Source: Mesorhizobium loti R88b | GTDB taxonomy: Bacteria; Pseudomonadota; Alphaproteobacteria; Rhizobiales; Rhizobiaceae | DNA: 64,000 nt | Assembly: GCF_013170845.1 (NCBI RefSeq) | Contig: NZ_CP033367.1 | Coordinates: forward strand, 6,015,001-6,079,000 | Direction of reading: 5' to 3' | Shown: one piece after another, positions 1,890 through 46,736 of the stretch | Layout: each line of letters begins with the position of its first letter | How positions within the stretch are numbered: position 1 is the first letter of the stretch | Made by a program: the position numbers and the translations under genes | The notes under the pieces: generated by a model | The model's input: only the letters and a program-made list of their open reading frames with translations | The model's database searches: none | Told to the model about the DNA's origin: nothing

Positions 1890-1916
1890 CGCAGGTGACC
1901 CCTGGCCGTGTCTTGA

Positions 1917-2591: not shown

Positions 2592-2595
2592 GCCA

Positions 2596-3012
2596 TCAAT
2601 CCGGAATTACGGCGGTGCCGTCGATCTCGACCAACCAGTCCGGCCGCGCCAGGGCCTGCACGACGAGGCCGGTCGAAACGGGGTGCACGCCTTTGATGTA
2701 CTCGCCCATGGTGCGGTAGACCGCCTCGCGATGGCGCACGTCGGTGATGTAGACCACCACCTTGACCAGATGTTCCATGGTGCCGCCGCATTCCTCGATC
2801 AGCTGGCGGATGTTCTGCATCACCTTGTGCGTCTGCTCGGCCGGGTCATGGCTGCCGATATTCTTGGCGGTATCGAGGTCCTGCGGACACTGGCCACGCA
2901 GATAGACGGTTCTGCCGCCCCGCGTAACGACGGCCTGACACAGATCGTTGTCGAGTTTCTGCTCCGGATAGGTGTCCTTGGTGTTGAACTTGCGAATTCT
3001 TGTATGGGCCAT
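2596..3012 (-). CDS. RidA/YjgF family enamine/imine deaminase
   Basis: A 138-residue RidA-superfamily protein, about ten residues longer than the classical form. It carries the family's C-terminal LARPDWLVEIDGTAV segment with the Arg and Glu that line the pocket between trimer subunits, and a KVVVYITDV strand in the middle. Such proteins hydrolyse reactive enamines/imines released by flavin- or PLP-dependent amine oxidations. Here it sits between a flavin monooxygenase and DUF1028 in one operon, consistent with clearing an imine intermediate. A GGAGAT Shine-Dalgarno sequence lies just before ATG 3012. Whether it is a housekeeping RidA or a pathway-specific subgroup cannot be decided here. Confidence 0.9.
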   Translation of the reverse strand: MAHTRIRKFNTKDTYPEQKLDNDLCQAVVTRGGRTVYLRGQCPQDLDTAKNIGSHDPAEQTHKVMQNIRQLIEECGGTMEHLVKVVVYITDVRHREAVYRTMGEYIKGVHPVSTGLVVQALARPDWLVEIDGTAVIPD

Positions 3013-3067
3013 CGTGATCTCCGTCGGATCGGCTCGAGGTCTGGGCTTCCGTTGCAGCTGCTGTTGG

Positions 3068-4342: not shown

Positions 4343-4456
4343 TGCAGCGGTCCTTTCTGGCTCTCTCCCCGAGATTTCCGCGGATGCGACGGAGATCAGA
4401 TTGCTGGTCTACCGGAGGGACCGAGCAGCGAAAATTACGATTTCATGTGGCAATGG

Positions 4457-6082
4457 TTAGCTTGTGCCTAAATGCGGCTGCGCCAAAATCGCCGTAGCCG
4501 CTTTTTCGCCGATCATCATGGATGGCGCATTGGTGTTGCCGCCGATCAATGTCGGCATGATCGAGGCATCCGCGACGCGCAGATTGTCGAAGCCGTGCAC
4601 CTTGAGGCTGGCAGGATCGACCACAGCCATGGTGTCCTTGCCCATCTTGGCCGTGCCGACCGGGTGATAAACGGTGAGCGCCTCGGCACGCAGATAGGCA
4701 AGGATCTCGTCATCGGTGACGACATCGGGTCCGGGCAGGATTTCCGGTCCGCGAATATCGGCAAAGACCGGCGAGGCCAGAATGGAGCGCGCGACCTTGA
4801 TGCCCTCGACAAGGGTCAGGGCATCCTGCTCGTCACTGAAGAAGCGGTGATCGATGTGCACGTTGCGGCGGGTGCCGTCGCGCTCGAGCATGATTTCGCC
4901 AACGCTGCCGGGCCGCAGCACGCAGGTGTGCACGGCATAGCCGTGGCCATATTCGACGAGCCGGCCGCGATGGCTGCGATAGCCGGGGACAAAGTGGAAT
5001 TGGACGTCGGGAACATCGCCGGCATATCTGGTCTTGGCGAAGCCGCCCGCCTCGACATAGTTGGTCGTCAGCATTCCCTTGCGGCGGACGAAATATTGAA
5101 ACGGTGCCGCCAGCATCGCCGGAAGATTGGCGAGCGACAGACCGAGCGTCCTGGTGCTCTTCGATCGCACCGTGATCATGCCGTCGACATGGTCGCGCAG
5201 GTTCTTGCCGACGCCCGGCACGTTCATGACCGGTTCTATTCCCGCCGCTTTCAGCTCCTCGGCCGGGCCGATGCCGGAAGCAAGCAGGATTCGCGGCGAT
5301 CCGATCGCGCCCGCGCTGAGCACCACTTCGGCGCGGCATGTCAGCCTTTGAGCTGCTCCGTCCCGGATCACATTGACACCGGTGACGCGCCCGCTTCCGA
5401 CTGCCAGATCAAGCACCTCGACGCCTGACAGGACCTGGAGGTTCGGGCGGCCGAGAACCGGCCGGATGAAGGCTGAATAGGCCGAGAAGCGCTCGCCCTT
5501 GTCCTGGGTGACATTGTAGATGCCGAGGCCGAGTTGGCCATCGGCATTGAAGTCACGGTTGTCGGGCAGCCCCACGCCCCTGCCCGCCTCTACCCACAGC
5601 CTGGACACCGCGTTGGGATCGCGCGGATTGTCGACCAGCAGTTCACCTTCGAAGCCGTGATAGGCCGGGTTCTGCGACAGGAGGTTCCGTTCCAGCGTCT
5701 TGAAGACCGGCAGGACATCGGCGTAGGACCACCCGGCACAGCCACGTGCCGCCCACTCATCGTAGTCCTGCGCGGCACCGCGAATATAGACCATCGAGTT
5801 GATCGAACTCGACCCGCCGAGAAGCTTGCCCCGGTTGACCGGTATGCGGCGGTTGTTGAGCAGCGGCTGCGGTACGCCTTTGTAGCCGTAGTCGAAAGTC
5901 GGATTGCCATAGAGCGAGAGGATGCCGGCCGGCACGCGCACCCTTGTGCGGTCATCGCTACCGCCAGCCTCGATCAGGCAGACACGGATTGCAGGATTGG
6001 CACTCAACCTGTTGGCCAGGACACAACCGGCCGAGCCCGCGCCGATGACGATATAGTCGAATTCCGCAGTCTCGATGCTCAT
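4457..6082 (-). CDS. GMC-family FAD oxidoreductase (choline dehydrogenase-like)
   Basis: A 541-residue glucose-methanol-choline oxidoreductase. FAD binding is shown by DYIVIGAGSAGCVLANRL at the N-terminus and the GMC signature GGSSSINSMVYIRG near residue 85. The catalytic His-Asn pair is visible at the C-terminus in VYHPVGTAKMG and NTNAPSMMIGEKAA. These enzymes oxidise primary alcohols to aldehydes, passing electrons to the respiratory chain or oxygen; the aldehyde dehydrogenase at 399-1889 would be the natural partner. It starts 5 bp after the ABC ATPase stop, so transport and oxidation genes are in one operon. Choline is only one of many possible substrates in this family. Confidence 0.92.
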   Translation of the reverse strand: MSIETAEFDYIVIGAGSAGCVLANRLSANPAIRVCLIEAGGSDDRTRVRVPAGILSLYGNPTFDYGYKGVPQPLLNNRRIPVNRGKLLGGSSSINSMVYIRGAAQDYDEWAARGCAGWSYADVLPVFKTLERNLLSQNPAYHGFEGELLVDNPRDPNAVSRLWVEAGRGVGLPDNRDFNADGQLGLGIYNVTQDKGERFSAYSAFIRPVLGRPNLQVLSGVEVLDLAVGSGRVTGVNVIRDGAAQRLTCRAEVVLSAGAIGSPRILLASGIGPAEELKAAGIEPVMNVPGVGKNLRDHVDGMITVRSKSTRTLGLSLANLPAMLAAPFQYFVRRKGMLTTNYVEAGGFAKTRYAGDVPDVQFHFVPGYRSHRGRLVEYGHGYAVHTCVLRPGSVGEIMLERDGTRRNVHIDHRFFSDEQDALTLVEGIKVARSILASPVFADIRGPEILPGPDVVTDDEILAYLRAEALTVYHPVGTAKMGKDTMAVVDPASLKVHGFDNLRVADASIMPTLIGGNTNAPSMMIGEKAATAILAQPHLGTS

Positions 6083-30123: not shown

Positions 30124-30153
30124 TGGTATGCTGGTATAACATGTAGATGGTAT
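30124..30153 (+). promoter_or_regulatory. Predicted GntR (FadR-type) operator upstream of sugar importer 1: three TGGTAT repeats
   Basis: TGGTAT occurs at 30124-30129, 30132-30137 and 30148-30153, i.e. at spacings of 8 and 16 bases. The middle copy is CTGGTAT (30131-30137), the reverse complement of ATACCAG found at 34878, 35861 and 44084. TATAAC at 30135-30140 could be a -10 box. Direct GGTATA-type repeats are what the FadR-family regulator NanR binds, which supports the operator reading. The regulator is probably the GntR protein at 43244. Confidence 0.65.
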
Positions 30154-30194
30154 GGTGTCTCTCGAATGAGGCGCCGTAACGGAATGGCATGCAA

Positions 30195-30216
30195 GCCGAC
30201 CGTGTTGGCCGGTATT
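30195..30216 (+). other. Leader hairpin with U-tract before binding-protein 1
   Basis: GCCGAC (30195-30200) pairs with GTTGGC (30204-30209; one G-T pair) around a 3-base loop, followed by CGGTATTTTTGGGAGG, so a T5 run leads straight into the Shine-Dalgarno sequence. A similar arrangement occurs before binding-protein 2 at 36026-36053. Possible attenuator or 5'-end stabiliser. Confidence 0.45.
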
Positions 30217-30232
30217 TTTGGGAGGAAGTATC

Positions 30233-31255
30233 ATGAAGTTTGCAATCGTGGCGGCGCTTGCCAGCGCCGCGCTGGGGAGCGTGTCTGTGCTGCCGGCAAT
30301 GGCGTCATCGGACGCACCCGTCATAGCGCTGACCAACGCCTATTACGGCAACACCTGGCGGCATCAGATGGTGGAAGCCTTCGAAGCCTCCGCCAAGGAA
30401 GCAAAGGCCGCCGGGCAGATCTCCGACTATATCGTCATGAACGGCGACGGCTCGGTGGCGCAGCAGAACAGCCAGATCGCCGAACTGATCCTCAAGAAGG
30501 TTGATGTGCTCGCCGTCGATGCCGCCTCGGAAACCGCGGTCAACGGCATCATCGAAAAAGCCTGCAAGGCCGGCATCATCGTCGTGTCCTTCGATTCAGT
30601 CGCCTCGGCGCCTTGCAACTACCAGCTCAATTTCGACTTCAAGGGCTACAAGGCGACCCAGGCCGAGGCCGTCTTCAAGATGCTCGACGGCAAGGGCAAT
30701 GTCATCCAGGTACGCGGCGTCAAGGGCTCGGCCCCGGACAACGACATGTTCAACGCCCAGCAGTCGGTGCTGGCGAAATATCCCGATATCAAGGTTGTCG
30801 CGACCGTCTATGGCCAGGCGACCGCCTCGGTGGCGCAGGCCGCCATCGCCAATGTCCTGCCCTCGCTGCCGCATGTCGATGCGGTGCTCGGCCAAGGTGG
30901 CAGCGACGATGTCGGCATCGCCCAGGCCTTTGTCCAATATGGCGGCGACTATGCCGGCAAGATGCCGATCATCGAAGGCGGCGGCGGCACCGATTTCGTC
31001 AAATGGTGGGCCGACGAGAACGCCAAGAACGGCTACCAGACGGTCTCGATGAACACGACGCCCGGCATTGGCGGCGCTGCTTTCTGGCTCGGCCTGTCCC
31101 TGCTCAAGGGCGCCAAGGCACCCAAGATGATGATCATGCCTGTCGCGACCGTCGATGCCAGCAACCTCAAGGAATACGCCAAGCTGCCGGGCGGCCAGAT
31201 CATCAGCCCCAGCTATTCGCTCGACTGGGTCAAGCAGAACCTGCTGAGCAAGTAA
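30233..31255 (+). CDS. Sugar ABC transporter substrate-binding protein 1 (RbsB-like, periplasmic)
   Basis: A 340-residue binding protein of the ribose/galactose type. Residues 1-24 are a Sec signal peptide ending at AMA. The mature part starts with PVIALTNAYYGNTWRHQM, the first beta-alpha unit of the fold, and has the hinge-region motif VDVLAVDAASETAVNGIIEKA. GGGAGGAAG lies just before the start. First gene of an operon with a fused ATPase-permease and a second permease; a GntR-type operator stands in front, placing it in the apiose regulon. D-apiose, D-apionate or a pectin-derived relative are candidate ligands; none is proven. Confidence 0.93.
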   Translation: MKFAIVAALASAALGSVSVLPAMASSDAPVIALTNAYYGNTWRHQMVEAFEASAKEAKAAGQISDYIVMNGDGSVAQQNSQIAELILKKVDVLAVDAASETAVNGIIEKACKAGIIVVSFDSVASAPCNYQLNFDFKGYKATQAEAVFKMLDGKGNVIQVRGVKGSAPDNDMFNAQQSVLAKYPDIKVVATVYGQATASVAQAAIANVLPSLPHVDAVLGQGGSDDVGIAQAFVQYGGDYAGKMPIIEGGGGTDFVKWWADENAKNGYQTVSMNTTPGIGGAAFWLGLSLLKGAKAPKMMIMPVATVDASNLKEYAKLPGGQIISPSYSLDWVKQNLLSK

Positions 31256-31269
31256 CGCGACCAGCGCAT

Positions 31270-31300
31270 GGGTCGGGCGCCGAAATGGCGCGCCCGATCC
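31270..31300 (+). other. Intercistronic stem-loop between SBP 1 and the ATPase-permease gene
   Basis: Stem of 11 pairs (31270-31280 with 31290-31300, one G-T pair; arm GGGTCGGGCGC) with a 9-base loop, followed by only TTT. It lies in the 70-bp gap after the binding-protein stop, while later genes of the operon overlap. Probably makes the binding-protein mRNA more abundant than the membrane subunits. Confidence 0.7.
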
Positions 31301-31325
31301 TTTGCCGTGAAGAAACGGAGGACGA

Positions 31326-33799
<2,474 letters not shown>

Positions 33800-33803
<4 letters not shown>

Positions 33804-34831
33804 ATGCGCTGTCCGCCTTCACGTTCTGGGCCCAGAAAAACCGCTGGATCTGGGCGGCGATCGGGGTGCTTCTGCTCTGGCTGGTGCTCTCCGTGGTCAC
33901 CAACCGGTTCAGCCTGTCCAGCCTGTCGGGCATCATCCTGTCGGCCTCGTTCCTGACGGTCGTCGGCATCGGCCAGATGTTCGTCGTCACCACCGGGCGC
34001 GGCAACATCGACCTCTCCGTCGCTTCGGTGATCACGCTCAGCGCCTTCGTCGCGCTGCTGACCATCAAGGGCCAGGATGCCAACCTCGCCATTGGTGTCG
34101 CCGCTGCCGTCCTGCTCGGACTCGCGGTAGGCCTGCTCAATTCGTTGCTCGTCGTCGGCCTCGGCATTCCGGCGATCATCGCGACGCTCGCGACAGGCTA
34201 TGTGCTGGCGACCGCGACGCTGCTGTCGAACCGCGCGATACCCGGTTTTGCCGTCAGCCCGGCGTTGAAAGGTCTGGCGACGGGCCGCATCTCGGGTGTT
34301 CCGATCATGGCCATCATTGCCATTCTCGGCGTGGCGGCAGCCTCCTTCGTGCTGCGCTACACCGTGTTCGGACAACTTCTGTCGGCGGTCGGCCAGAACC
34401 GCGCGGCCGCCCGGCTCGCCGCCATCAACAACGGCTGGGTGATCGCGGCGGCGTTCATCATCTCTTCGGTGCTGGCCTCGCTCGACGGCCTGCTGCTCGG
34501 CGCCTATATCGGCGGCGCCTTCCTCGAAATGGGCCAGCCCTATCTGCTGCAGTCGATCGCCGCCGTGGTGCTCGGCGGCACGCTGATCTTCGGCGGCTCG
34601 GCGACCGCGCTCGGCACCCTGTTCGCCAGCATCCTGCTCATCCTGATCGTCACCACCATGCAGATCATCGGGCTGCCTCCCGGCGCCCAGGATATCGTCC
34701 AGGGCATCGTCGTCATCTTCGTCCTGGCGCTGGCGGGGCGACAGGCATTGGCGCGCCGCGCCATTGTCGATCCCACGGCCGCCGCGGCGGCGAAGACAGA
34801 GCCAGGCGCTGCCGCGTCCCAGTCGAAGTGA
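33800..34831 (+). CDS. Sugar ABC transporter permease (RbsC family)
   Basis: A 343-residue inner-membrane permease with 8-10 hydrophobic segments. The signature VVTTGRGNIDLSVASVITLSA corresponds to the conserved GGIDLSVG region of RbsC. ATG 33800 overlaps the stop codon of the fusion gene. It would form a heterodimeric pore with the C-terminal permease half of the preceding protein. The 107-bp gap after it holds a regulatory site and ends this operon or starts the next unit. Confidence 0.93.
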
Positions 34832-34863
34832 CGACCACAACCAATGATTCCTCTTGCCAAATT

Positions 34864-34884
34864 CTGGTAGAGTGATCATACCAG
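34864..34884 (+). promoter_or_regulatory. Predicted GntR operator upstream of apnO (perfect dyad)
   Basis: CTGGTA (34864-34869) and TACCAG (34879-34884) form a perfect 6-bp dyad separated by 9 bases, followed directly by the A/T-rich TATATAA, which could serve as a -10 region. It contains the same ATACCAG core (34878-34884) as the sites at 30131 (reverse strand), 35861 and 44084. It lies 55 bp before ATG 34939. Confidence 0.7.
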
Positions 34885-34938
34885 TATATAAGATGACGAT
34901 CGCAAGACGATCGCCTATGGATCAAGGAGCAAGGCCAG

Positions 34939-35766
34939 ATGACAACGATTGCGCTGTTCGGTGCGGGCGGGAAAATGGGCTACCGCCTGTCGACCAATTT
35001 TCGCGGATCGGACTACACGATCCGCCATGTCGAGATCAGCGAGGCGGGCAAGGAGCGGCTGAAAACCGGTCTGGGCTTCGACGCGATCGGCGTCGATGAG
35101 GCGCTTGAAGGGGCCGATGTGGTGATCCTGGCGGTGCCGGACACGCATATCGGCAAGGTCGCCACCAGCATCGAAAGCAAGCTTGCGGCAGGCACAATGG
35201 TCGTTGTGCTCGATGCGGCGGCACCGTTCGCCGGGCATCTGCCTGATCGTCCCGATCTCACCTATTTCGTCACCCATCCCTGCCACCCGCCGATCTTCAA
35301 TGACGAGACCGATATGGCCGCCAAGAAGGACTTTTTCGGCGGCGTCAAAGCCAAGCAGCATTTTGTCAGTGCCCTGATGCAAGGACCTGAGGAAGACTAC
35401 GCCAAGGGCGAGAAGATCGCCCAGATCATCTGGGCGCCGGTGATGCGCTCGCACCGCGTCACGGTCGAACACATGGCGCTGCTGGAGCCCGGCCTGTCGG
35501 AAACGGTGTGCGCTTCGCTGCTCGTCGTCATGAAGGAAGCGCTCGACGAGGTCGTGGCGCGCGGCGTCGACCGGCAGGCGGCGCTAGATTTCCTGCTCGG
35601 CCACATGAATGTGCTCGGCGCCGTCATCTTCGGCGAGACCAAGGGCGTGTTCTCCGATGCCTGCAACAAGGCCATCGAATTCGGCAAGCCAGTGCTGATG
35701 CGTGACGACTGGAAGCGCGTCTTCGAGCCGGAAGAAATCGCCGCCAGCATCCAGCGCATCACTTGA
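34939..35766 (+). CDS. apnO: D-apionate oxidoisomerase
   Basis: A 275-residue dehydrogenase with an N-terminal Rossmann domain (IALFGAGGKMGYRLS, residues 4-18; VVILAVPDTHIG) and a helical domain related to the C-terminal part of 6-phosphogluconate dehydrogenase (VTHPCHPPIFN, GHMNVLGAVIFGE). This domain pair is that of D-apionate oxidoisomerase, which converts D-apionate with NAD+ to 3-oxo-isoapionate by oxidation coupled to carboxylate migration. The assignment rests on family resemblance plus the presence of all partner enzymes (ApsD, ApnL, OiaK, OiaX) in the next 11 kb. It has its own operator-promoter and a terminator-like hairpin behind it. Confidence 0.87.
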   Translation: MTTIALFGAGGKMGYRLSTNFRGSDYTIRHVEISEAGKERLKTGLGFDAIGVDEALEGADVVILAVPDTHIGKVATSIESKLAAGTMVVVLDAAAPFAGHLPDRPDLTYFVTHPCHPPIFNDETDMAAKKDFFGGVKAKQHFVSALMQGPEEDYAKGEKIAQIIWAPVMRSHRVTVEHMALLEPGLSETVCASLLVVMKEALDEVVARGVDRQAALDFLLGHMNVLGAVIFGETKGVFSDACNKAIEFGKPVLMRDDWKRVFEPEEIAASIQRIT

Positions 35767-35785
35767 GAGGGCGGGCTCGGATTTC

Positions 35786-35808
35786 CCTTCTCCCTCAAAG
35801 GGAGAAGG
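35786..35808 (+). terminator. Terminator-like hairpin after apnO
   Basis: Perfect 10-bp stem, CCTTCTCCCT (35786-35795) with AGGGAGAAGG (35799-35808), and a CAA loop, 19 bp after the apnO stop. No strong T-run on the plus strand, but TTT precedes the left arm, so minus-strand reads end in AAA. Hairpins of CTTCTCCC/GGGAGAAG type are frequent repeats in rhizobial spacers. Confidence 0.6.
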
Positions 35809-35850
35809 AAGAACATCAACCCGTCAGATACAGATCACCTTAATTAGTGA

Positions 35851-35878
35851 TTGACTCATCATACCAGTTGGCTAAGCT
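35851..35878 (+). promoter_or_regulatory. Predicted promoter plus GntR operator for importer 2 - apsD - apnL operon
   Basis: TTGACT (35851-35856) and TAAGCT (35873-35878) are spaced by 16 bases like a sigma-70 promoter. ATACCAG (35861-35867) lies between them, and the stretch ACTCATCATACCAGTT matches the site at 44077 in 14 of 16 positions. An operator in the spacer is a classic repression geometry. Confidence 0.6.
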
Positions 35879-36008
35879 GCTCCCGCGCTCGGATTGAAGC
35901 CGGGACGAGCGGAGGATGGCGAGGAACGGGGAGCGAAAATCGGTTCGGTTGGAAAGTCGGCAAGCGGCTTTGCCTGACCGAGCCTGTGCTGCCCGCACTG
36001 CCTGATGA

Positions 36009-37010
<1,002 letters not shown>

Positions 37011-37030
37011 GCCGGCGCAATGCAATCCGC

Positions 37031-37057
37031 GAGGGGCGAACCCGGGGTTCGTCCCTC
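37031..37057 (+). other. Intercistronic stem-loop between SBP 2 and the lipoprotein gene
   Basis: Near-perfect stem of 12 pairs, GAGGGGCGAACC (37031-37042) with GGTTCGTCCCTC (37046-37057; one G-T pair), with a 3-base loop. It lies 21 bp after the binding-protein stop and is followed by GTCTCCGTTTCCC. Fourth example in this window of a strong hairpin directly after an importer binding-protein gene. Confidence 0.75.
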
Positions 37058-37087
37058 GTCTCCGTTTCCCTGGGATGCTTGACCGCG

Positions 37088-37732
37088 ATGCCGAAGAAGT
37101 TGACCTGGCTGACACTTGTCGCGCTCGCCGGCATCAGCCTCAGTGCCTGCAAGATTCTGCCGACGCCCTCCGCGCAAGACGGCGCCAATGCGTCCGGCTT
37201 CAACCCGGATAAGATGGTCGAGGATATCTGGGTGGCGAAGGTCATCCCGTACCTGCTGCAGAAGGCCGGGCCGTTTGCCGAGGTCCATGCGCTGGCGAAG
37301 ACCGATCAGGCGGCAGCCGGCGCCAAATACGGCAACCCCAAGAAACAAGCGAATTCGCCATGGACCTTCGCGGTCCGCGTCGAGGGCAAGATCGTTGCCG
37401 CCAACACGCAGTCGCGCGCGGCAACGATGGATATCGACGTCGATGGTGACGGCAAGGCGGATGCGCGGGTGCAGATCGGGCCGGCGATACGCGGAACCGC
37501 ACTGCGCGACAGCCTCGACTTCGTCCAGTTCAACGATTTCACCAACCAGATCGACTTCGCCCAGTTCGGCAAGGCGTTCAATGCCTATGCCGACAAGACC
37601 GTGCTGTCGAAGCTGCCGCGCGAGGCGCTGGAGGGCCGCACCGCCAAGGTGCTCGGCGCCTATACGATCGAAGGCGGCCAGGACCTGCCGCTGGTGACCC
37701 CGGCGGAGGCCGAGATCGGGCCGAAGCCATGA
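37088..37732 (+). CDS. DUF2291 family lipoprotein
   Basis: A 214-residue predicted lipoprotein. The signal peptide ends in a lipobox, ISLSAC, with the lipidated Cys at residue 21, so the protein is anchored to the outer face of a membrane. The rest matches DUF2291, a family known almost only from sugar ABC operons of rhizobia and relatives; its role is not established and may be in ligand capture or transporter assembly. ATG 37088 is preferred over TTG 37079. The end overlaps the ATPase gene by 4 bp. Confidence 0.88.
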   Translation: MPKKLTWLTLVALAGISLSACKILPTPSAQDGANASGFNPDKMVEDIWVAKVIPYLLQKAGPFAEVHALAKTDQAAAGAKYGNPKKQANSPWTFAVRVEGKIVAANTQSRAATMDIDVDGDGKADARVQIGPAIRGTALRDSLDFVQFNDFTNQIDFAQFGKAFNAYADKTVLSKLPREALEGRTAKVLGAYTIEGGQDLPLVTPAEAEIGPKP

Positions 37733-39303
37733 ACATGTCGGCCGGTCACGAAATCATCCTGAAGCTGGAAGACGTCTCGAAAGTCTATGCCGGCACCGTC
37801 GCGGTCAAGCAGGCCAATTTCGAGGTGCGCAAGGGCGCGGTCAATGTGCTGGTCGGTGAGAACGGCGCCGGCAAATCGACGCTGATGAAGATCATCGCCG
37901 GCGTCGAGCAGCCGACGGCCGGTCGCATCCTGCTCGACGGCAGGGAGGTTTCGTTCTCGTCCTCGGGTGACGCGGTGAACCGTGGCATCGGCATGGTGTT
38001 CCAGGAATTGAACCTGTTCGGCAACATGACGGTTGCCGAGAACATTTTCGCCACGCGCGAGATCACCAACCGGTTTCGCAAGATCGACCGCAAGGAGCAG
38101 GAACGGCGGGCCGGTGAATTCCTCGATCGGCTCGAAGCCGGTATCCGGCCGGACATGCTGGTCGAGGATCTGCGCATCGGCCAGCAGCAATTGGTCGAGA
38201 TCGCCAAGGCCGTCTCGCTCGACGCGCGCATCCTGATCATGGACGAGCCGACCTCGGCGCTAAGCGCCGCTGAAGTCGAGATCCTGTTCAAGGTGATCGC
38301 CGACCTCAAGGCGCGTGGCGTGGCGATCGTCTATATCTCGCACCGGCTCGAGGAACTCATCCGCATCGGTGACTACATCACCGTGCTGCGCGATGGCCGC
38401 ATCACCGGCCAGGAGGACGTGAAAAACGTCGACACGCAATGGATCGTGCGGCAGATGATCGGCTCGGACGCCAAGGATTTCGCCAAGGCCGACGGCCATG
38501 TGCCGGGCGAAGAGATTTTCCGCGCCGAGGACATCTGCCTGCCGCGCGCCACCGGCGGACTGGCGGTCGACCACGTCTCGCTGTCGCTGCGCGCCGGCGA
38601 GATTTTGGGCATCTACGGCCTGATGGGCGCCGGGCGCAGCGAGCTGTTCGACTGCATCATGGGCCGCCATGGCCATGCCAGCGGCAAGATCTTCATCGAG
38701 GGAAACCATATCAGGGAACGCGACACGACGCGGCGCATCAAGCGCGGGCTGGCGCTGATCCCGGAAGACCGCCAGCGCGAGGGCCTGGTGTCGATTCTCT
38801 CCGTCGCCAGCAATTTGACATTGGCGAGCCTGTCGCGCTTCGTCACCCTGTTCCACATCCGAGGCGGCGCCGAGCGGCAGGCCGTGGTGCAGATGGTACG
38901 GGAGCTCGCGATCAAGGTCGCCGACCCGGCGCAAGAGGTCTCGTCGCTGTCTGGCGGCAACCAGCAAAAGGTGGTGATCGGCAAGGCGCTGCTCACCGGA
39001 CCGAAGGTGCTTTTGATGGACGAGCCGAGCCGCGGCATCGATGTCGGCGCCAAGGCCGACGTCTTCCGCACCATGCGCAAGCTGTCGCGGGATGGGCTGG
39101 GCATCCTCTTCGCCACCTCCGACCTCGACGAGGTGATGGCACTGTCCGACCGGATCGCGGTGATGAGCAATGGCAAACTGACCGGCATGTTCGACCGCGC
39201 CGAGGCAACGGAAGCCGCGATCGTCGCCGCATCGGCGCTCGGCCACGGACCTGCACCTCTTGCCCCCGCACATCTTGCCCCCCGACATGGAAAGCAACGC
39301 TGA
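37729..39303 (+). CDS. Sugar ABC transporter ATP-binding protein (RbsA/MglA family)
   Basis: A 524-residue double-domain sugar ATPase. Domain 1: Walker A GENGAGKST (43-51), signature region RIGQQQLVEIAKA, Walker B ILIMDEPTSALS. Domain 2: GLMGAGRSELFD in the degenerate Walker A place, LSGGNQQKVVIGKALL, and VLLMDEPSRGID. Overlaps both neighbours (ATGA before, TGATG after), so subunits are made together. Powers the second importer of the apiose regulon. Confidence 0.94.
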   Translation: MNMSAGHEIILKLEDVSKVYAGTVAVKQANFEVRKGAVNVLVGENGAGKSTLMKIIAGVEQPTAGRILLDGREVSFSSSGDAVNRGIGMVFQELNLFGNMTVAENIFATREITNRFRKIDRKEQERRAGEFLDRLEAGIRPDMLVEDLRIGQQQLVEIAKAVSLDARILIMDEPTSALSAAEVEILFKVIADLKARGVAIVYISHRLEELIRIGDYITVLRDGRITGQEDVKNVDTQWIVRQMIGSDAKDFAKADGHVPGEEIFRAEDICLPRATGGLAVDHVSLSLRAGEILGIYGLMGAGRSELFDCIMGRHGHASGKIFIEGNHIRERDTTRRIKRGLALIPEDRQREGLVSILSVASNLTLASLSRFVTLFHIRGGAERQAVVQMVRELAIKVADPAQEVSSLSGGNQQKVVIGKALLTGPKVLLMDEPSRGIDVGAKADVFRTMRKLSRDGLGILFATSDLDEVMALSDRIAVMSNGKLTGMFDRAEATEAAIVAASALGHGPAPLAPAHLAPRHGKQR

Positions 39304-40367
39304 TGACTGACATTCCGGCCAGGGCAGCTCACTCTTCGGCCTCCAGCGGCTCCGCGCTGCTGACGCTGATGAAGCTCAGGACCTTCATCGCACTGATCGC
39401 CGTGCTGGTGTTCTTCTCCATCGCGGCGCCGAACTTCCTGTCGGCCGCCAATCTGATCCTGATGGCCAAGCACGTGGCGCTCAACGCCTTCCTCGCCATG
39501 GGCATGACCTTTGTCATCATCACCGGCGGAATCGACCTTTCGGTCGGTTCGATCGTCGGCCTGTGCGGCATGGTGGCCGGCTATCTCGTGCTCAACGGCA
39601 TCGATCTGCAGATCGGCTACACCATCTATTTCAACGTGGTCGAGATCGCATTGATCACGCTGCTGGTCGGCATATTGATCGGCGCCGTCAACGGATTGCT
39701 GATCACCAGGCTCAATGTCGCCCCCTTTATCGCCACGCTCGGCGTGCTCTATGTGGCGCGCGGCCTGGCGCTGCTGTCTTCGGACGGGCGCACCTTCCCC
39801 AATCTGGTTGGCAAGCCGGAACTCGGCACCACCGGCTTCGGCTTCCTTGGCGCCGGCCGGCTCGCCGGCCTGCCCGTCTCGATCTGGATGCTGATCGTGG
39901 TGGCACTGGGTGCCGCCTATCTCGCCCGGTACACGCCGCTCGGCCGCCACATCTTCGCCGTCGGCGGCAATGAGCGCGCGGCACGCATCTCGGGCGTGCG
40001 CGTCAACATGGTCAAGATGTTCGTCTACATGTTCTCCGGCTTCTGCGCGGCGATCGTCGGCCTGATCATCTCGTCGGAGCTGATGGCCTCGCATCCGGCG
40101 ACGGGCGAAAGCTTCGAGTTGAATGCTATTGCCGCGGCAGTGCTTGGCGGCACCTCGATGTCTGGCGGCCGCGGCACGATCGGCGGCACCATCGTCGGCG
40201 CCTTCGTCATCGGCATCCTGTCGGACGGGCTGGTGATGATGGGCGTGAGCTCCTTCTGGCAGATGGTGATCAAGGGGCTTGTCATCATCGTCGCCGTCGT
40301 CGTCGACCAGGCGCAGCGCCGGCTTCAGCAGCGCGTTACCCTGATGCAGATGGCAAAGGCGGGTTGA
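39303..40367 (+). CDS. Sugar ABC transporter permease (RbsC family)
   Basis: A 354-residue permease with about ten hydrophobic segments. The family motif FVIITGGIDLSVGSIVGL is textbook RbsC, as is GGTSMSGGRGTIGGTIVGAF near the C-terminus. A homodimer would form the pore of importer 2. The start ATG overlaps the ATPase stop (TGATG); apsD follows after 2 bp, so transport and the first catabolic step are translated from one message. Confidence 0.94.
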   Translation: MTDIPARAAHSSASSGSALLTLMKLRTFIALIAVLVFFSIAAPNFLSAANLILMAKHVALNAFLAMGMTFVIITGGIDLSVGSIVGLCGMVAGYLVLNGIDLQIGYTIYFNVVEIALITLLVGILIGAVNGLLITRLNVAPFIATLGVLYVARGLALLSSDGRTFPNLVGKPELGTTGFGFLGAGRLAGLPVSIWMLIVVALGAAYLARYTPLGRHIFAVGGNERAARISGVRVNMVKMFVYMFSGFCAAIVGLIISSELMASHPATGESFELNAIAAAVLGGTSMSGGRGTIGGTIVGAFVIGILSDGLVMMGVSSFWQMVIKGLVIIVAVVVDQAQRRLQQRVTLMQMAKAG

Positions 40368-40369
40368 TC

Positions 40370-41404
40370 ATGGCGAGCTTGAGTGGAGCGCTGATCGGCT
40401 GCGGCTTCTTCGCAGTCAACCAGATGCATGCCTGGAGCGACATCGACGGCGCCTCGATCATCGCCATCTGCGACCGCGATCCGGAACGGTTGCGGATCGT
40501 TGGCGACCAGTTCGGCATCGCGAGGCGCTACACCGATGCAGCGGCGCTGTTCGCGGCCGAGACGCTCGACTTCGTCGACATCGCCACCACCGTGGTCAGC
40601 CATCGGCCGCTGGTCGAGATGGCGGCCGCCCACCGCGTTCCGGTGATCTGCCAGAAACCCTTCGCGCCGACGCTGACAGACGCCAAGGCGATGGTCGCGG
40701 CCTGCGCCAACGCCGGCGTGCCGCTGATGGTGCATGAGAATTTCCGCTGGCAGTCGCCGATCCAGGCGGTGCGCGCCGTACTCGACAGCGGGGAGATCGG
40801 TACGCCCTTCTTCGGGCGCATCTCCTTCCGCTCCGCCTATGACGTGTTTTCCGGCCAGCCCTACCTGGCGACGGGAAAGCGCTTCATCATCGAGGATCTC
40901 GGCATCCATATCCTCGACATTGCACGTTTCCTGCTGGGCGACGTCTCGAGCCTCACCGCCCGGACGGCACGCATCAACCCGGCCATCGCGGGCGAGGATG
41001 TCGCCACCGTGCTGATGGATCACAAGAGCGGCGCCACCTCCGTGGTCGATTGCAGCTATGCGACCAGGCTTGCCGTCGAGCCGTTTCCCGAAACGCTGAT
41101 CGAGATCGACGGCAGCGACGGCACGATCCGGCTGGCGCAGGGATACCAGCTCACCGTCACCGGCAAGAGCGGCACAACGGTCACCGACATCTCGCCGCCG
41201 CTTCTGCCCTGGGCATCGCGGCCATGGCACAACATCCAGGAAAGCGTGCTGGCGATCCAGCGGCACTGGGTCGACTGCCTTGCATCAGGCAAGGAGCCAG
41301 CAACCTCGGGCGCCGACAACCTCAAGACATTCGCGCTGGTCGAGGCGACCTATGCCGGCGCCGCGAGCCGGCAACCGGTGCAGATCGACGACCTGCTGAA
41401 GTGA
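40370..41404 (+). CDS. apsD: D-apiose dehydrogenase (Gfo/Idh/MocA family)
   Basis: A 344-residue NAD(P)-dependent sugar dehydrogenase. The Rossmann start ALIGCGFFAVNQMHAW carries the GxGxxx motif, and K96 in ICQKPFAPT is the conserved catalytic-site Lys (EKP motif variant QKP). D-apiose dehydrogenase oxidises D-apiose to D-apionolactone, the first step of the oxidative route. Assignment follows from the gene lying directly between an importer and a D-apionate lactonase, with apnO, oiaX and oiaK close by. By sequence alone it could only be called a Gfo/Idh/MocA protein. Confidence 0.85.
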   Translation: MASLSGALIGCGFFAVNQMHAWSDIDGASIIAICDRDPERLRIVGDQFGIARRYTDAAALFAAETLDFVDIATTVVSHRPLVEMAAAHRVPVICQKPFAPTLTDAKAMVAACANAGVPLMVHENFRWQSPIQAVRAVLDSGEIGTPFFGRISFRSAYDVFSGQPYLATGKRFIIEDLGIHILDIARFLLGDVSSLTARTARINPAIAGEDVATVLMDHKSGATSVVDCSYATRLAVEPFPETLIEIDGSDGTIRLAQGYQLTVTGKSGTTVTDISPPLLPWASRPWHNIQESVLAIQRHWVDCLASGKEPATSGADNLKTFALVEATYAGAASRQPVQIDDLLK

Positions 41405-43239
41405 CCGTGGATCGCTTCCTGCTCGTGGGCACACGCGCGGTGGAAGCCGAGCCGGTCCGGCTCAGCGCCGGCCCGCTCAGCGCCGATTTCGTCAACGGCA
41501 ATCTGCGAACCATCCGCCATGGCGGCACGGAGGTCTTGCGCGCCATCGCCTATATCGTGCGCGACCGCGACTGGGGCACTTACGAGCCAGTGCTGGCGGA
41601 TTTGACCATCGACCAAAGTGCCGATGCTTTCTCCGTCAGTTATACGGCGACCTGCGCCGGACCGGGCGGAAGCCGGCTCGCCTTTTTCGCGACCATCAAG
41701 GGTTCAGCGGACGGACGGCTGGTGTTCGACGTCAGCGCGCTGCCCGAAAGCGATTTCGAGACCAACCGCTGCGGCTTCTGCATCCTGCATCCGATCGCCG
41801 GCCTTGCCGGCAGCCCGGTGATGGTGGAGCACACCGACGGCAGCGTGGTGGCGACGAAACTGCCTGATCTCATCGACCCTTGGCAGCCTTTCAAAAATCT
41901 GCGCGCCATCAAGCATGAAGTGAGCCCCGCCGTCAGCGCCGAATGCCGCATGGAAGGCGACGTTTTCGAGATGGAGGACCAGCGCAACTGGTCCGATGCC
42001 TCCTACAAGACCTATGTGCGGCCACTGGCGCTACCATGGCCCTATGTGTTGCCGGCCGGCGAGACCAACCGCCAGACGATCAGCCTGCGCATTGCCAGCG
42101 ACGCCAAGACGCCGGCTGCAGCCAAGGCATCCGGCGCGGTCCGCGTGACGCTTGGCGAGCCCGGTCCGGCGCTGCCGGATGTCGGCGTCATCATCTATCC
42201 CAGCGATGTCGAGACAGTGCTGGCGAACCTCGCCACCTTGTCCGTGCTCGGCCCGCAACAACTGCTGTTTCACCACGATCCGACGCGCGGTCACGGGCTC
42301 GACGCCCTGCGTTCTTTCGCCCGGCTTGCCGACGCCTATCGCGCCCGGACAACGCTCGAATGTGTGATCGCCTGCACCGGCGATCTCGATGCCGAACTTG
42401 CAGAGGTCGCCGACATGGTGCGCCGGGCAGGTCTGCGGCTCGACGCCATCGCGGTGTCGCCTTCGGTCGACCGGCAGTCGACTCCGCCGGGCAGTGCCTG
42501 GCCGCCCTGCCCACCGCTCGAACATGTCTATGCCGCCGCGCGGCGCGCCTTTCCTGATATCCGTCTCGGTGGCGGCATGTTCAGCTATTTCACCGAGCTC
42601 AACCGCAAGCGCGTTCCGGCCGGACTGCTCGACTTCATCACCCACTGCACCTGCCCGATCGTGCACGCCGCCGACGATCTCAGCGTCATGCAGTCGCTGG
42701 AGGCGTTGCCGTTCATCACCCGGTCGGCGCGGGCGATCTTCGGCGACAAGCCCTACCGGATCGGACCTTCGACCATTGCCATGCGGCAGAACCCCTATGG
42801 CGGCGCGACCAAGGAGAATCCGCGGCGACAGCGCATCGCCATGGCCAACAGTGATCCGCGCCACAACGGCCTGTTCGCGGCCGCATGGACCATCGGCTAT
42901 GCCGCGCGCGTCGCGCCGGCCGGGCTGGAGATGCTGACGTTGTCCGGCTTCACCGGACCGTTCGGTCTGCTGGCGGCATCCGGTGAACCCGTTGCTGAAG
43001 GGTCGCCGCGACCGATCTTCGAGGCCATCAAAGGGCTTTGCGAGCTGTCTGGGCTCGCCGATGTGTCCGCAAGGACAAGCGACGAGACGAGGATTGCGGC
43101 GCTGGCCGGCCGGTCCGCCTCGGGCGAGACCATCGTGTGGCTGGCGAACCTGACGGCGGACGATGTCGCGGTCGACACGTCCGCGCTTGGCCAGGGTCAT
43201 CTCGTCATGGCGCCCTACGCCATTACCCGGATCGGCTAA
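41401..43239 (+). CDS. apnL: D-apionate lactonase
   Basis: A 612-residue protein of the D-apionate lactonase family: an N-terminal beta-rich part (DFVNGNLRTIRHGGTEVLRAIAY; FCILHPIAGLAG) and a TIM-barrel-like middle (GVIIYPSDVETVLANLATL; LGGGMFSYFTELNRKR), resembling glycoside-hydrolase folds. It opens D-apionolactone to D-apionate. GTG 41401 is chosen because it overlaps the apsD stop (GTGA); GTG 41407 is the alternative. The stop lies 4 bp from the convergent GntR gene. The specific name rests on the family plus the full set of apiose genes around it. Confidence 0.87.
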   Translation: MTVDRFLLVGTRAVEAEPVRLSAGPLSADFVNGNLRTIRHGGTEVLRAIAYIVRDRDWGTYEPVLADLTIDQSADAFSVSYTATCAGPGGSRLAFFATIKGSADGRLVFDVSALPESDFETNRCGFCILHPIAGLAGSPVMVEHTDGSVVATKLPDLIDPWQPFKNLRAIKHEVSPAVSAECRMEGDVFEMEDQRNWSDASYKTYVRPLALPWPYVLPAGETNRQTISLRIASDAKTPAAAKASGAVRVTLGEPGPALPDVGVIIYPSDVETVLANLATLSVLGPQQLLFHHDPTRGHGLDALRSFARLADAYRARTTLECVIACTGDLDAELAEVADMVRRAGLRLDAIAVSPSVDRQSTPPGSAWPPCPPLEHVYAAARRAFPDIRLGGGMFSYFTELNRKRVPAGLLDFITHCTCPIVHAADDLSVMQSLEALPFITRSARAIFGDKPYRIGPSTIAMRQNPYGGATKENPRRQRIAMANSDPRHNGLFAAAWTIGYAARVAPAGLEMLTLSGFTGPFGLLAASGEPVAEGSPRPIFEAIKGLCELSGLADVSARTSDETRIAALAGRSASGETIVWLANLTADDVAVDTSALGQGHLVMAPYAITRIG

Positions 43240-43243
43240 GAGC

Positions 43244-43957
43244 CTACTTTTCGGAGTTCATAACGTAGAGCGCGCGCGAGCGTTCGAGATGCTTGATCAT
43301 CGACTTCTCGGCACCCTCGGGGTCCCTCTGCTCGATGCGGTCGACGATCTCTTCGTGCTCGGTCAGCGTATACTTTTCCTTGCCGGTCCAGATCAGCATC
43401 TCGGTGTGATATTCCTTCAGCCAGCCGAGCATGGCCTCGCTGACAGCGACATAGATCGGGTTGCCCGAAATCGCTGCGATCTGGGTGTGGAAGTTCATGT
43501 CGGCGGAAATGAAGGCGTCGGAATCGCCGCGCGCGGCACGCTGCTCGGCGACGGTTGCCTTGAGCCGCTGCACATCCTCGACGGTGGCCTTTTCAGCGGC
43601 CTCCCTGACCATGCCGCGCTCGAAGAAGATGCGCGCGGTCTTGAGGTGCTCGAGCGTGTCCTTCGATGACGACAGGATGATCTTGGCCGCGCCGTCGACC
43701 TGTTTGATGATCGACTTGGCGGTGAGTTGCAGCACCTTGGCCCGCTCGCCATGCGAAATAGCGACAAGCCCCATATTGCTCAGCGCCTGCATCGCCTCGC
43801 GGATGGCCGGCCGGCCAACCTCGAAGCGCTCCATCAATTCGCGCTCCGACGGCATGTCGTCGCCCGGCTGCAGCTCGCCGCTGGTGATCAGCCGCTTCAG
43901 CCTTGCAAAGACTTCGTCGGAAAGTTTGCGCCGGACGATCGGCTCCGAACGGTTCAT
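43244..43957 (-). CDS. GntR family regulator (FadR/FCD subfamily), predicted apiose regulon repressor
   Basis: A 237-residue FadR-type regulator. The winged helix-turn-helix is at residues about 9-75 (RLITSGELQPGDDMPSERELMERFEVGRPAIREAMQAL), and an all-helical FCD ligand-binding domain follows (VLQLTAKSI to the C-terminus), with DMNFHTQIAAISGN contributing metal/ligand residues. It is convergent with apnL and divergent from oiaX-oiaK. Four ATACCAG-type sites stand before every apiose transcription unit, including one overlapping a perfect TATAAT -10 box of its own promoter, so autoregulated repression relieved by a pathway sugar acid is predicted. Confidence 0.92.
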   Translation of the reverse strand: MNRSEPIVRRKLSDEVFARLKRLITSGELQPGDDMPSERELMERFEVGRPAIREAMQALSNMGLVAISHGERAKVLQLTAKSIIKQVDGAAKIILSSSKDTLEHLKTARIFFERGMVREAAEKATVEDVQRLKATVAEQRAARGDSDAFISADMNFHTQIAAISGNPIYVAVSEAMLGWLKEYHTEMLIWTGKEKYTLTEHEEIVDRIEQRDPEGAEKSMIKHLERSRALYVMNSEK

Positions 43958-44080
43958 CGTGACGAATCACTCCCTGGCCCGGTTCCTGTTTAGCATTGCC
44001 GGCGCGATTCCCGGAATGCCTGCGCCTTGCCCGCCGCTTCGCACGAGGTCGGGATATTTGCTTGCAATACTTATGTACTC

Positions 44081-44090
44081 ATTATACCAG
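44081..44090. promoter_or_regulatory. Predicted GntR operator between gntR and oiaX, overlapping the gntR -10 box
   Basis: ATACCAG at 44084-44090, preceded by TACTCATT as at the site upstream of importer 2. On the minus strand, 44086-44081 reads TATAAT, a perfect -10 hexamer pointing towards gntR; TTGCAA at 44062-44067 could be a -35 box pointing towards oiaX. One bound regulator could thus control both divergent units. Confidence 0.65.
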
Positions 44091-44142: not shown

Positions 44143-45393
44143 ATGATCACCTTCACCTATCGCATCGAAACGTCAGATAGCATCGAGGCGCTGGCGGCCA
44201 AGATCGCCAGCGACCAGTCGACCGGCACCTTCGTTGCCCTGCCCGGCGAGACCGAAGAGCTGAAGGCACGCGTGGCAGCGCGAGTGCTGGCGATCCGGCA
44301 TCTGCACGATGCCGAGCAACCGTCCATTCCCGAGGCCGGCAGCGGGCCATTCAAGCGCGCCGATGTCGACATTGCATTCCCGTTCGATGCGATCGGCACG
44401 GACCTTTCGGCGCTTATGACCATCGCCATCGGCGGCACCTATTCGATCAAGGGCCTGTCGGGCATCCGCGTCGTCGACATGAAGCTGCCGCAAGAATTCA
44501 AGGGCGCCCATCCCGGCCCGCAATTCGGCGTCGCGGGCAGCCGCCGTCTGACCGGTGTCGAGGGCCGCCCTATCATCGGCACCATCGTCAAGCCGGCGCT
44601 GGGCTTGCGGCCACCCGAGACGGCCGCGATGGTGGGCGAACTGATCGAGGCCGGCGTCGATTTCATCAAGGACGATGAGAAGCTGATGAGCCCGGCTTAT
44701 TCGCCGCTAGCGGAACGGGTGAAGGCGATCATGCCGCTGATCCTCGACCACGAGCAGAAGACCGGCAAGAAGGTGATGTATGCCTTCGGCATCTCGCATG
44801 CCGACCCGGACGAGATGATGCGCAACCACGATCTGGTGCTTGCGGCCGGCGGCAATTGCGCCGTGGTCAACATCAACTCCATCGGCTTCGGCGGCATGGC
44901 CTATCTCAGAAAGCGCTCCGGCCTGGTGCTGCACGCCCACCGCAATGGCTGGGACATCCTCACCCGCCATCCCGGCCTCGGCATGGATTTCAAGGTGTGG
45001 CAACAGTTCTGGCGGCTGCTTGGCGTCGACCAGTTCCAGATCAACGGCATCGCCTCGAAATACTGGGAGCCGGACGCGTCCTTCATCCGCTCCTTCGAGG
45101 CAGTAACGACACCGCTGTTTTCTCCCGACGATTGCGCCCTGCCGGTCGCCGGCTCAGGCCAATGGGGTGGACAGGCGCCCGAAACCTATGAGCGCACCGG
45201 GCGGACGGTCGATCTGCTCTATCTCTGCGGAGGTGGCATCGTCAGCCATCCGGACGGCCCGGGTGCAGGCGTGCGCGCCGTGCAGCAGGCTTGGCAGGCC
45301 GCAGTCGCCGGCATTCCGCTGGCGGACTATGCCACCAGCCATGTCGAGCTGGCGCGCTCGATCGAAAAGTTCGGCGACGGCAAGGCGGCGTGA
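44143..45393 (+). CDS. oiaX: RuBisCO-like protein, 3-oxo-isoapionate-4-phosphate decarboxylase
   Basis: A 416-residue form IV RuBisCO-like protein. Active-site elements kept: K150 in TIVKPALGL, the carbamylated Lys K176 with metal ligands D178 and E179 in DFIKDDEKL, H264-A-H266-R267 in LHAHRNG, and phosphate-binding glycines in LCGGGIVSHP. Loop 6 is NGIASKYWEP (K306) instead of the RuBisCO GKLEG form, so it is not a CO2-fixing enzyme. With DUF1537 kinase and apnO beside it, the role is decarboxylation of 3-oxo-isoapionate 4-phosphate to L-erythrulose 1-phosphate and CO2. The start has no clear Shine-Dalgarno sequence (GGCTCCCC before ATG). Confidence 0.88.
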   Translation: MITFTYRIETSDSIEALAAKIASDQSTGTFVALPGETEELKARVAARVLAIRHLHDAEQPSIPEAGSGPFKRADVDIAFPFDAIGTDLSALMTIAIGGTYSIKGLSGIRVVDMKLPQEFKGAHPGPQFGVAGSRRLTGVEGRPIIGTIVKPALGLRPPETAAMVGELIEAGVDFIKDDEKLMSPAYSPLAERVKAIMPLILDHEQKTGKKVMYAFGISHADPDEMMRNHDLVLAAGGNCAVVNINSIGFGGMAYLRKRSGLVLHAHRNGWDILTRHPGLGMDFKVWQQFWRLLGVDQFQINGIASKYWEPDASFIRSFEAVTTPLFSPDDCALPVAGSGQWGGQAPETYERTGRTVDLLYLCGGGIVSHPDGPGAGVRAVQQAWQAAVAGIPLADYATSHVELARSIEKFGDGKAA

Positions 45394-46736
45394 GCGAGGT
45401 CATGCAGAACCTGCTGCTGAGCTATTATGGCGACGACCTCACCGGTTCGACCGACGTCATGGAGGCGCTCGAGCTCGGCGGTGTGTCGACGGTGCTGTTC
45501 ATGCGCCAGCCGGACGCGGCGCAGCTCGCGCAATTCTCGCACTGCCGCGCTGTTGGGCTGGCAGGCACCAGCCGCAGCGAGACGCCGCAGTGGATGGACA
45601 CGCATCTCAAGGATGCCTTCGGCTGGCTGAAGACGTTGAACGCCGCCATCTGCCACTACAAGATCTGCTCGACCTTCGATTCCAGCCCGATGATCGGCAA
45701 CATCGGCCGGGCGATCGAGATCGGACGCGCCGTCTTTGCACAGGACTGCGTGCCGCTGCTGGTCGGCGCACCGCAGCTCAAACGCTACACGGCGTTCGGC
45801 CATCTGTTCGCGGCCTATCGCGACCGATACTACCGCATCGACCGCCATCCGGTGATGAGCCGCCACCCGACCACGCCGATGGACGAAGCGGACCTTCTGA
45901 TCCATCTGTCGCGGCAGACCGAGCTTGCCTCGGGATTGCTCGATCTGGCGACGCTGCAGTCCGCGTCGCGATCGCAGGCATTCGATCACCTTGTCAGGAA
46001 TAGCGCGGCCATCGTGCTTGTCGATGTCGACAGCCGGGAGACCCAGGCGCTGGCTGGCAAGGAGATATGGCACAGGCGCAAGCCAAGCGGTTCCTTCGTC
46101 GCCGGCTCCTCCGGCATCGAGTATGCATTGCTCGCCGAATGGGCGGAGGCTGCCACCGTGGACGCCGAGCCTCGCTTTTCGCCGCCGGGCGCAGCCGATC
46201 GGATCGCGGTGGTGTCGGGCAGCTGCTCGCCGACCACGGAACGGCAGATCCGCCATGCGCTGACCGACGGCTTCGACGGCATCAACGTTGATCCGGTAGA
46301 ACTGATCTCAGAGACTTCCGAACAAGCGATCGCGCGCGCGGCGACGGCGGCCCGCGGCAGCTTGCAGGCCGGGCGCAGCGTCATCCTCTACACTGCGCTC
46401 GGGCCCACGGCGGATCGCGGCACCGAGATCGACCGCCAGGAAGGTGCTCGCCACAAGCTCGGCCGCGGCCTTGGCACGTTGCTTCGGCAACTGACCGAGC
46501 AGCAGGAATTAAAGCGTGTCATCATCGCCGGCGGCGACACGTCGAGCCACGCGCTGGGACAGATGGGCGTCGATGCGCTGACGGTCAGGATGCCGCTGCC
46601 CGCCTCGCCGGGTTCGCCACTGTGCGTCGCCCATTCGCGTGTCAATGCCATCGACGGGCTGGAGGTCGCGCTGAAGGGTGGGCAGGTCGGAACCGACCGC
46701 TATTTCTCAGCCATTCGCGACGGTCGTGGTGGTTGA
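45390..46736 (+). CDS. oiaK: 3-oxo-isoapionate kinase (DUF1537/four-carbon acid sugar kinase family)
   Basis: A 448-residue kinase from GTG 45390, which overlaps the oiaX stop (GTGA); ATG 45402 is the alternative start. The N-terminal substrate domain begins LLSYYGDDLTGSTDVMEAL, diagnostic of DUF1537, and the C-terminal nucleotide-binding domain has VVSGSCSPTTERQI and IIAGGDTSSHALGQMG. It phosphorylates 3-oxo-isoapionate with ATP, making the substrate for the RuBisCO-like decarboxylase encoded just upstream. Specific name inferred from the co-occurring apiose genes; the family also includes erythronate and threonate kinases. Confidence 0.87.
   Translation: MSEVMQNLLLSYYGDDLTGSTDVMEALELGGVSTVLFMRQPDAAQLAQFSHCRAVGLAGTSRSETPQWMDTHLKDAFGWLKTLNAAICHYKICSTFDSSPMIGNIGRAIEIGRAVFAQDCVPLLVGAPQLKRYTAFGHLFAAYRDRYYRIDRHPVMSRHPTTPMDEADLLIHLSRQTELASGLLDLATLQSASRSQAFDHLVRNSAAIVLVDVDSRETQALAGKEIWHRRKPSGSFVAGSSGIEYALLAEWAEAATVDAEPRFSPPGAADRIAVVSGSCSPTTERQIRHALTDGFDGINVDPVELISETSEQAIARAATAARGSLQAGRSVILYTALGPTADRGTEIDRQEGARHKLGRGLGTLLRQLTEQQELKRVIIAGGDTSSHALGQMGVDALTVRMPLPASPGSPLCVAHSRVNAIDGLEVALKGGQVGTDRYFSAIRDGRGG

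Follow-up and report, generated by a model that had tools for sequence, protein, structure and literature searches.

D-Apiose is a sugar of plant cell walls and glycosides, and clusters for its catabolism were reportedly described by Carter et al. in 2018. Those clusters are known here through PMC6302742; similar to them, the locus of Mesorhizobium loti R88b described below encodes OiaX and ApnL proteins that score over their model cut-offs, an OiaK-like kinase and sugar ABC importers. No report of a regulator or operator of apiose catabolism appears among the top open-licence PMC matches; Carter et al. 2018 may mention one. The word "regulator" is absent from the text of PMC11747546.

The closest described regulator is NanR of Escherichia coli, which belongs to the same NCBIfam subfamily (NF003011) as the GntR protein encoded at this locus. 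The E. coli NanR operator, (GGTATA)3, is a set of direct repeats with spacings of 9 and 8 bp, and the operator of nanA, CTGGTATAACAGGTATAAAGGTATA (NC_000913), shares the half-site TGGTAT with the sites described below, three of which are not GGTATA repeats. According to PMC8012715, a single GGTATA is bound poorly by NanR, one of whose two monomers is presumed to contact non-consensus DNA, and a 32-residue N-terminal extension mediates cooperative stacking; nine DNA-contact residues have been proposed, three of them arginines proposed to read bases. The FadR subfamily, as described in PMC4494728, uses palindromes of the form GT-N3-AC, and has in common with the present system a GntR/FCD protein and a TGGT-type half-site.

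The window, by which we mean the whole stretch of 64,000 nucleotides that was analysed, contains the following features (matrix scores are explained below).

30124..30153, plus strand: predicted operator of importer 1, direct TGGTAT repeats at 30124, 30132 and 30148; fourth matrix score (10.8, at 30131-30148)
30233..34831, plus strand: importer 1, comprising a binding protein, a fused ATPase-permease and a permease (domain and model matches)
34864..34884, no strand assigned: predicted operator of apnO, the dyad CTGGTAGAGTGATCATACCAG; third matrix score (12.9, at 34867-34884), its other arm fifth (10.4)
34939..35766, plus strand: apnO-type dehydrogenase (PF16896, 238.8 bits; no named NCBIfam model passed)
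35848..35867, minus strand: predicted operator of importer 2-apsD-apnL, CTGGTATGATGAGTCAATCA; second matrix score (17.2, at 35850-35867)
36069..40367, plus strand: importer 2, comprising a binding protein, a DUF2291 lipoprotein, an ATPase and a permease (domain and model matches)
40364..43239, plus strand: apsD-type dehydrogenase of the GFO/IDH/MocA family (PF01408/PF22725) and the lactonase gene apnL (NF049900)
43244..43957, minus strand: gntR, a NanR-subfamily GntR/FCD regulator and the proposed ligand of the operators (NF003011, 359.8 bits, cut-off 260)
44071..44090, minus strand: predicted operator of gntR and oiaX, CTGGTATAATGAGTACATAA; best matrix score (27.5, at 44073-44090), its core kept in 105 of 105 loci
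44143..45393, plus strand: oiaX, 3-oxo-isoapionate-4-phosphate decarboxylase (NF042437, 780.5 bits, cut-off 700)
45402..46736, plus strand (start approximate): oiaK-like kinase (NF042436, 471 bits, under the cut-off of 700)

ApnL scores 949 bits against a model cut-off of 750, and no named model passes its cut-off for apsD; the names apnO and apsD rest on context, that of apnO also on the earlier note. The OiaK-like kinase falls well under its model cut-off despite following a full-scoring oiaX. In importer 1, the ATPase and one permease are fused into a single protein of 825 residues (31326-33803).

The earlier note, made from the letters of this DNA, had proposed ATACCAG as an operator word shared by these units. 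The word stands exactly where it had been placed, at 30131-30137 (minus strand), 34878-34884, 35861-35867, 41143-41149 and 44084-44090, and, as was conceded there, it is not unique: the copy at 41143-41149 lies inside apsD. The 7.2-Mb genome holds 450 copies, compared with 382 of the reversed control word. Five copies in 64 kb are borderline (expected mean 1.79; at least five in 4 of 100 window shuffles), and the bare 7-mer was rejected as a site predictor on these counts. The apsD copy was likewise rejected as a site, being outside the best 15 matrix places in the window. Across the four spacers, which measure 268, 107, 302 and 185 bp, ATACCAG is the sole shared 7-mer; after dinucleotide shuffling, a 7-mer of any kind was shared by all four in 9 of 2000 cases, a test that corrects for the word having been chosen after the fact. 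The longer word said to be common to two of the sites, ACTCATNATACCAG, does occur exactly twice in the genome, both times in the window; at up to two mismatches it has 34 genome places against 24 for its reverse, a descriptive figure for a word derived from these very sites. For CTGGTATRATSASTNNNNCA, the corresponding numbers are 5 and 4, with the top three places in the cluster from which the word was built. The useful unit is a predicted, conserved operator of about 14-20 bp, roughly CTGGTATRAT(G/C)A(G/C)T, of which ATACCAG is the strong half.

A held-out matrix finds the same places. The matrix was built from 12 distinct sequences of 46 sites, all upstream of oiaX and all from outside the Mesorhizobium-type set, and was scored on both strands of the window. 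Its four top places are the four sites listed above; after the other apnO arm, the next place scores 8.4, and the maximum in the reversed window is 9.2. The importer 1 score and those near it are little above this control maximum, so the weakest operators rest more on conservation than on score.

Comparison of related loci shows that the motif is kept upstream of orthologous apiose operons. The oiaX loci compared were 80 of 434 confirmed in a contig search, 30 from a family search and the window itself; the gntR/oiaX spacer was obtained from 106 of them, leaving 105 (102 distinct) once the duplicate of the window was removed. This spacer contains ATTATACCA in all 105 loci and ACTCATTATACCAG in 100. 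Among the 43 loci that do not belong to the Mesorhizobium-type set, conservation is 95-100% at every base of ATACTCATTATACCAG and drops outside it, save for a TGG arm (79-88%) that lies five bases to the left in the frame of the dyad. Upstream of importer 2, ACTCAT(C/T)ATACCAG is found in 59 of 60 Mesorhizobium-type loci. Upstream of apnO, 46 of 48 Mesorhizobium-type loci carry the dyad form TGGTA-N8-ATACCA, and 18 of 20 other loci carry the form ACTCAT(C/T)ATACCA. For importer 1, 146 genomes of the genus were searched and the 30 best loci, the window among them, were compared; TGGTATAAYRTG is present in 29 of these, and a TGGTAT pair spaced by 8 bp in 27. The three repeats described for importer 1 can all be read in the window, but the third does not hold up as a fixed part, recurring in 17 of the 30 loci. 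Such conservation at all four positions refutes chance recurrence of a 7-mer, an explanation that could draw on the number of genome copies and the borderline count in the window, that the shuffled spacers also oppose, and that is now scarcely credible.

In the leaders of both importers, hairpins that resemble terminators and carry runs of T separate the operator from the start codon, at 30195-30209 and 36026-36043 (shuffle means 0.5 and 0.3). Among the importer 1 leaders, a stem followed by T's occurs in 18 of 30, and a consensus fold predicted no structure.

The presence of the site also follows that of the regulator. In a sample of 297 genomes of the family, with the exact word ACTCATYATACCWG taken as the site, the word occurs in 53 genomes and in 27 of the 109 genera sampled, while its reversed form has one match in all. 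The regulator is over cut-off in 80 of the 297 genomes and OiaX in 59. The regulator is present in 52 of the 53 genomes with a site and in 28 of the 244 without one (Fisher test, with kinship ignored). The regulator is present in every one of the 59 OiaX genomes, the exact site in 48; of the 11 that lack the exact word, eight carry a variant site before oiaX, among them G248 (locus L092), with scores of 12.5-28.6 for the variant sites of the other seven. In the remaining three of the 59 (G003, G079 and G220), no site over a score of 8 was found near oiaX, and in G079 and G220 GGTAT/ATACC halves remain in the spacer. Four site genomes have the regulator without an OiaX over cut-off: G090 and G180 hold clusters of the apiose type whose RuBisCO-like protein has 40-45% identity, and G260 and G268 have a RuBisCO-like match within 0.1 kb of the site, as judged from positions alone. 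In G199, the only genome with a site but no regulator, the word falls within an ORF of 279 codons.

Most site places, 78 of 86, lie within 20 kb of a match to the regulator or to oiaX. Six of the remaining eight were inspected: three precede apnO, two are at transport genes (G180), and one is the intragenic copy of G199. In G094, G283 and G257, the site stands before apnO, which is followed by SBP2; the contig lacks gntR in the first two, and gntR is 51 kb away in the third. The two exact sites of G180 (L248 and L249) lie apart from the gntR contig region and precede other putative ABC importer genes, 29-33% identical to those of the window, which are possible further members of the regulon. 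In five genomes (G256, G137, G013, G248 and G178; loci L089, L090, L092, L113 and L116), oiaX lacks gntR as its immediate neighbour, and the site is still found before oiaX. The detached gntR is 1-9 kb off in four of these and on another contig in G178, where it has its own copy of the site upstream (L216).

The protein encoded by gntR has the Pfam domains GntR and FCD, and its best PDB match is E. coli NanR, with 91 of 235 aligned residues identical. The half-site had been likened to that of NanR on the strength of its letters, and the link proves stronger than was claimed: of 46 NF003011 matches in the genome, the local GntR is the only one over cut-off. Seven of the nine proposed NanR DNA contacts are identical in this protein, all three of the proposed base-reading arginines among them; the two that differ are Asn89, replaced by His, and Ser71, replaced by Ala. 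Arginines of this sort are common in the FadR subfamily, so they show fit and not specificity. The ligand pocket diverges from that of a sialic acid sensor. All four Zn ligands are kept (D153, H157, H201 and H223, an Asp-His3 set), whereas of the 13 listed Neu5Ac contacts six are identical, six are changed and one is unaligned. This combination would fit a metal-assisted pocket for another sugar acid. The N-terminal extension is 20 residues shorter than that of E. coli NanR, residue 1 aligning with E. coli residue 21.

These observations are best accounted for, with a probability of roughly 0.83, if a single local, autoregulated NanR-subfamily GntR repressor of apiose uptake and catabolism uses the four sites as its operators. 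A predicted operator lies at the promoter region of gntR itself and before oiaX, apnO and both importers, an arrangement expected of an autoregulated repressor. We infer that, without inducer, a GntR dimer would sit on each operator and hold the five units repressed. The dimer over the gntR/oiaX promoter region would bring about autoregulation together with control of oiaX-oiaK, a second dimer would cover the probable promoter of importer 2-apsD-apnL, and dimers at apnO and importer 1 would lie within the leaders. Release could be brought about by a sugar acid of the pathway, whether apionate, 3-oxo-isoapionate or its phosphate, which the conserved Asp-His3 metal site, together with Arg109, would anchor in the FCD pocket.

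As a set, the predicted operators are real sequence features, well conserved and linked to the regulator, and constitute a new predicted regulon. D-Apiose catabolism thereby gains a concrete predicted regulator, operator and regulon, and importer 1 and unlinked importers would be tied to the pathway by regulation instead of neighbourhood. The regulon also points to a member of the NanR subfamily acting outside sialic acid metabolism.

Several observations weigh against control by one local regulator. A second good half is missing from three of the four sites, and a single GGTATA is bound poorly in E. coli; the importer 1 score is little above the control maximum, three OiaX genomes have no site over a score of 8 near oiaX, and the sigma-70 scan placed no promoter pair on a site. 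In addition, CTGGTATGATAATT is found upstream of an FCD regulator paralog in the same genome (G000:C1:347448; L157), possibly as a site of cross-talk. The half-site is therefore not unique to the local GntR. Since it is common in the family, another FCD-GntR paralog, of which the 45 NF003011 matches below cut-off provide a supply, might read the sites wholly or in part. We regard this as improbable, given that site presence follows the NanR-subfamily protein so closely across the family and that gntR either adjoins a site or, detached as in G178, has its own, which fits autoregulation.

The positions of the sites relative to promoter elements bear on the mode of action. Read on the strand of gntR, the gntR/oiaX site includes a TATAAT hexamer (minus strand; ATTATA at 44081-44086), and TTGACT, read by eye, precedes the importer 2 site. 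A sigma-70 scan found no promoter in the gntR/oiaX, importer 2 or apnO spacers; its one match in the importer 1 spacer, at 30205-30234, does not overlap the operator. The earlier description of a gntR TATAAT box is confirmed as to the letters and not as to the promoter, and its placing of the importer 2 site between -35 and -10 boxes is likewise unconfirmed by the scan. The same two hexamers could mean that the conserved words serve chiefly as promoter elements rather than as an operator for a regulator. That seems most unlikely, as the scan puts no promoter pair on the sites, CTGGTAT recurs at differing promoter positions (the direct repeats of importer 1, the dyad of apnO), its orientation is flipped in L089 and L116, and its site form is almost confined to genomes that have the regulator.

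With the gntR/oiaX site over TATAAT and the importer 2 site after TTGACT, occlusion is the simplest reading of how the repressor would act. The local GntR may instead bind the same sites as an activator, or act in both ways, as suggested by the annotation of K-12 NanR as a dual regulator; this is an unlikely alternative, because, judged by eye, the sites of oiaX/gntR and importer 2 coincide with probable core promoter elements or fall between them, which fits occlusion.

All four sites contain CTGGTAT and with it the GGTAT half-site of NanR-type operators. The apnO site is an inverted repeat, the perfect dyad CTGGTA-N9-TACCAG that had been described and that is read directly at 34864-34884, and is the only clean dyad among the sites of the window. 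At importer 1, TGGTAT recurs as a direct repeat with a spacing of 8 bp, close to the (GGTATA)3 operator of E. coli, and the other two sites have one clear half. The class consensuses, in which the first 8-12 letters after C served for finding the sites and only the remainder is informative, are CTGGTATAATGAGTATtcCA for oiaX in other genera (the Mesorhizobium type being identical to the window site), CTGGTATgATCACtCTACCA for apnO of the Mesorhizobium type and CTGGTATGATGAGTCAATcA for other apnO, CTGGTATgATGAGTCAAtCA for importer 2 and CTGGTATAAtATGTAccTG for importer 1. When all six classes are taken together, the strongest partner half is inverted and 7 bp on (3.37 of 6 against a mean of 1.57), and the strongest direct one is at 9 bp (2.6 against 1.56). 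A test with 4-mers gives z 3.1 for the inverted form GT-N11-AC, the best partner arm, z 2.1 for the FadR form GT-N3-AC and z 3.0 for a direct offset of 5 bp. Because this last offset makes no sense as a repeat, many offsets were compared and the sequences are related, the geometry tests are suggestive only and the difference from FadR is unsettled. Clean inverted forms occur in relatives, GGTATGATCATCATACC in G088 and CTGGTATGGTCGCGATACCAG in G079.

Together, these patterns suggest that each operator consists of a strong half-site, CTGGTATRAT, and a weaker partner half whose geometry is unsettled. By analogy with NanR on non-consensus DNA, the asymmetric sites could be single-dimer sites. A more tentative reading, which we consider possible though doubtful, is that a single NanR-type dimer, its stacking extension shortened, recognises TGGTAT in two geometries within one regulon: at apnO and in relatives such as G088 and G079 it would read the inverted form TGGTAT-N7-ATACCA (GT-N11-AC), and at importer 1 direct repeats with the 8-9 bp spacing of E. 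coli. If true, this clade would show the GntR family moving between palindromic and direct-repeat operators; the regulon in any case offers a test of change in half-site geometry within one GntR subfamily.

Paralogous clusters occur in several relatives. In the wider class of NanR-like proteins (L210-L215), no common site was seen by eye. In G133, G148, G151, G160 and G166, clusters that combine a different RuBisCO-like protein with a GntR of 43-45% identity have no site over a score of 8. In G155, a second cluster (L222, G155:C1:74500-94400, 1300-5597) is divergent from importer 1 and encodes apnO-like (50% identity), RuBisCO-like (44%) and NanR-like (43%) proteins. Given this second cluster beside importer 1 in G155, and a single NanR-subfamily protein over cut-off in the genome of the window, importer 1 may have arrived together with a cluster of this kind. 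The spacers by the second GntR in G155 and the other five clusters (L222-L227) share, by eye, TTATATGATGACATAACG-like words with a TATGATGA core; these words are perhaps the operator of a paralogous regulator, with the TATGATGA core in common with the apiose operator.
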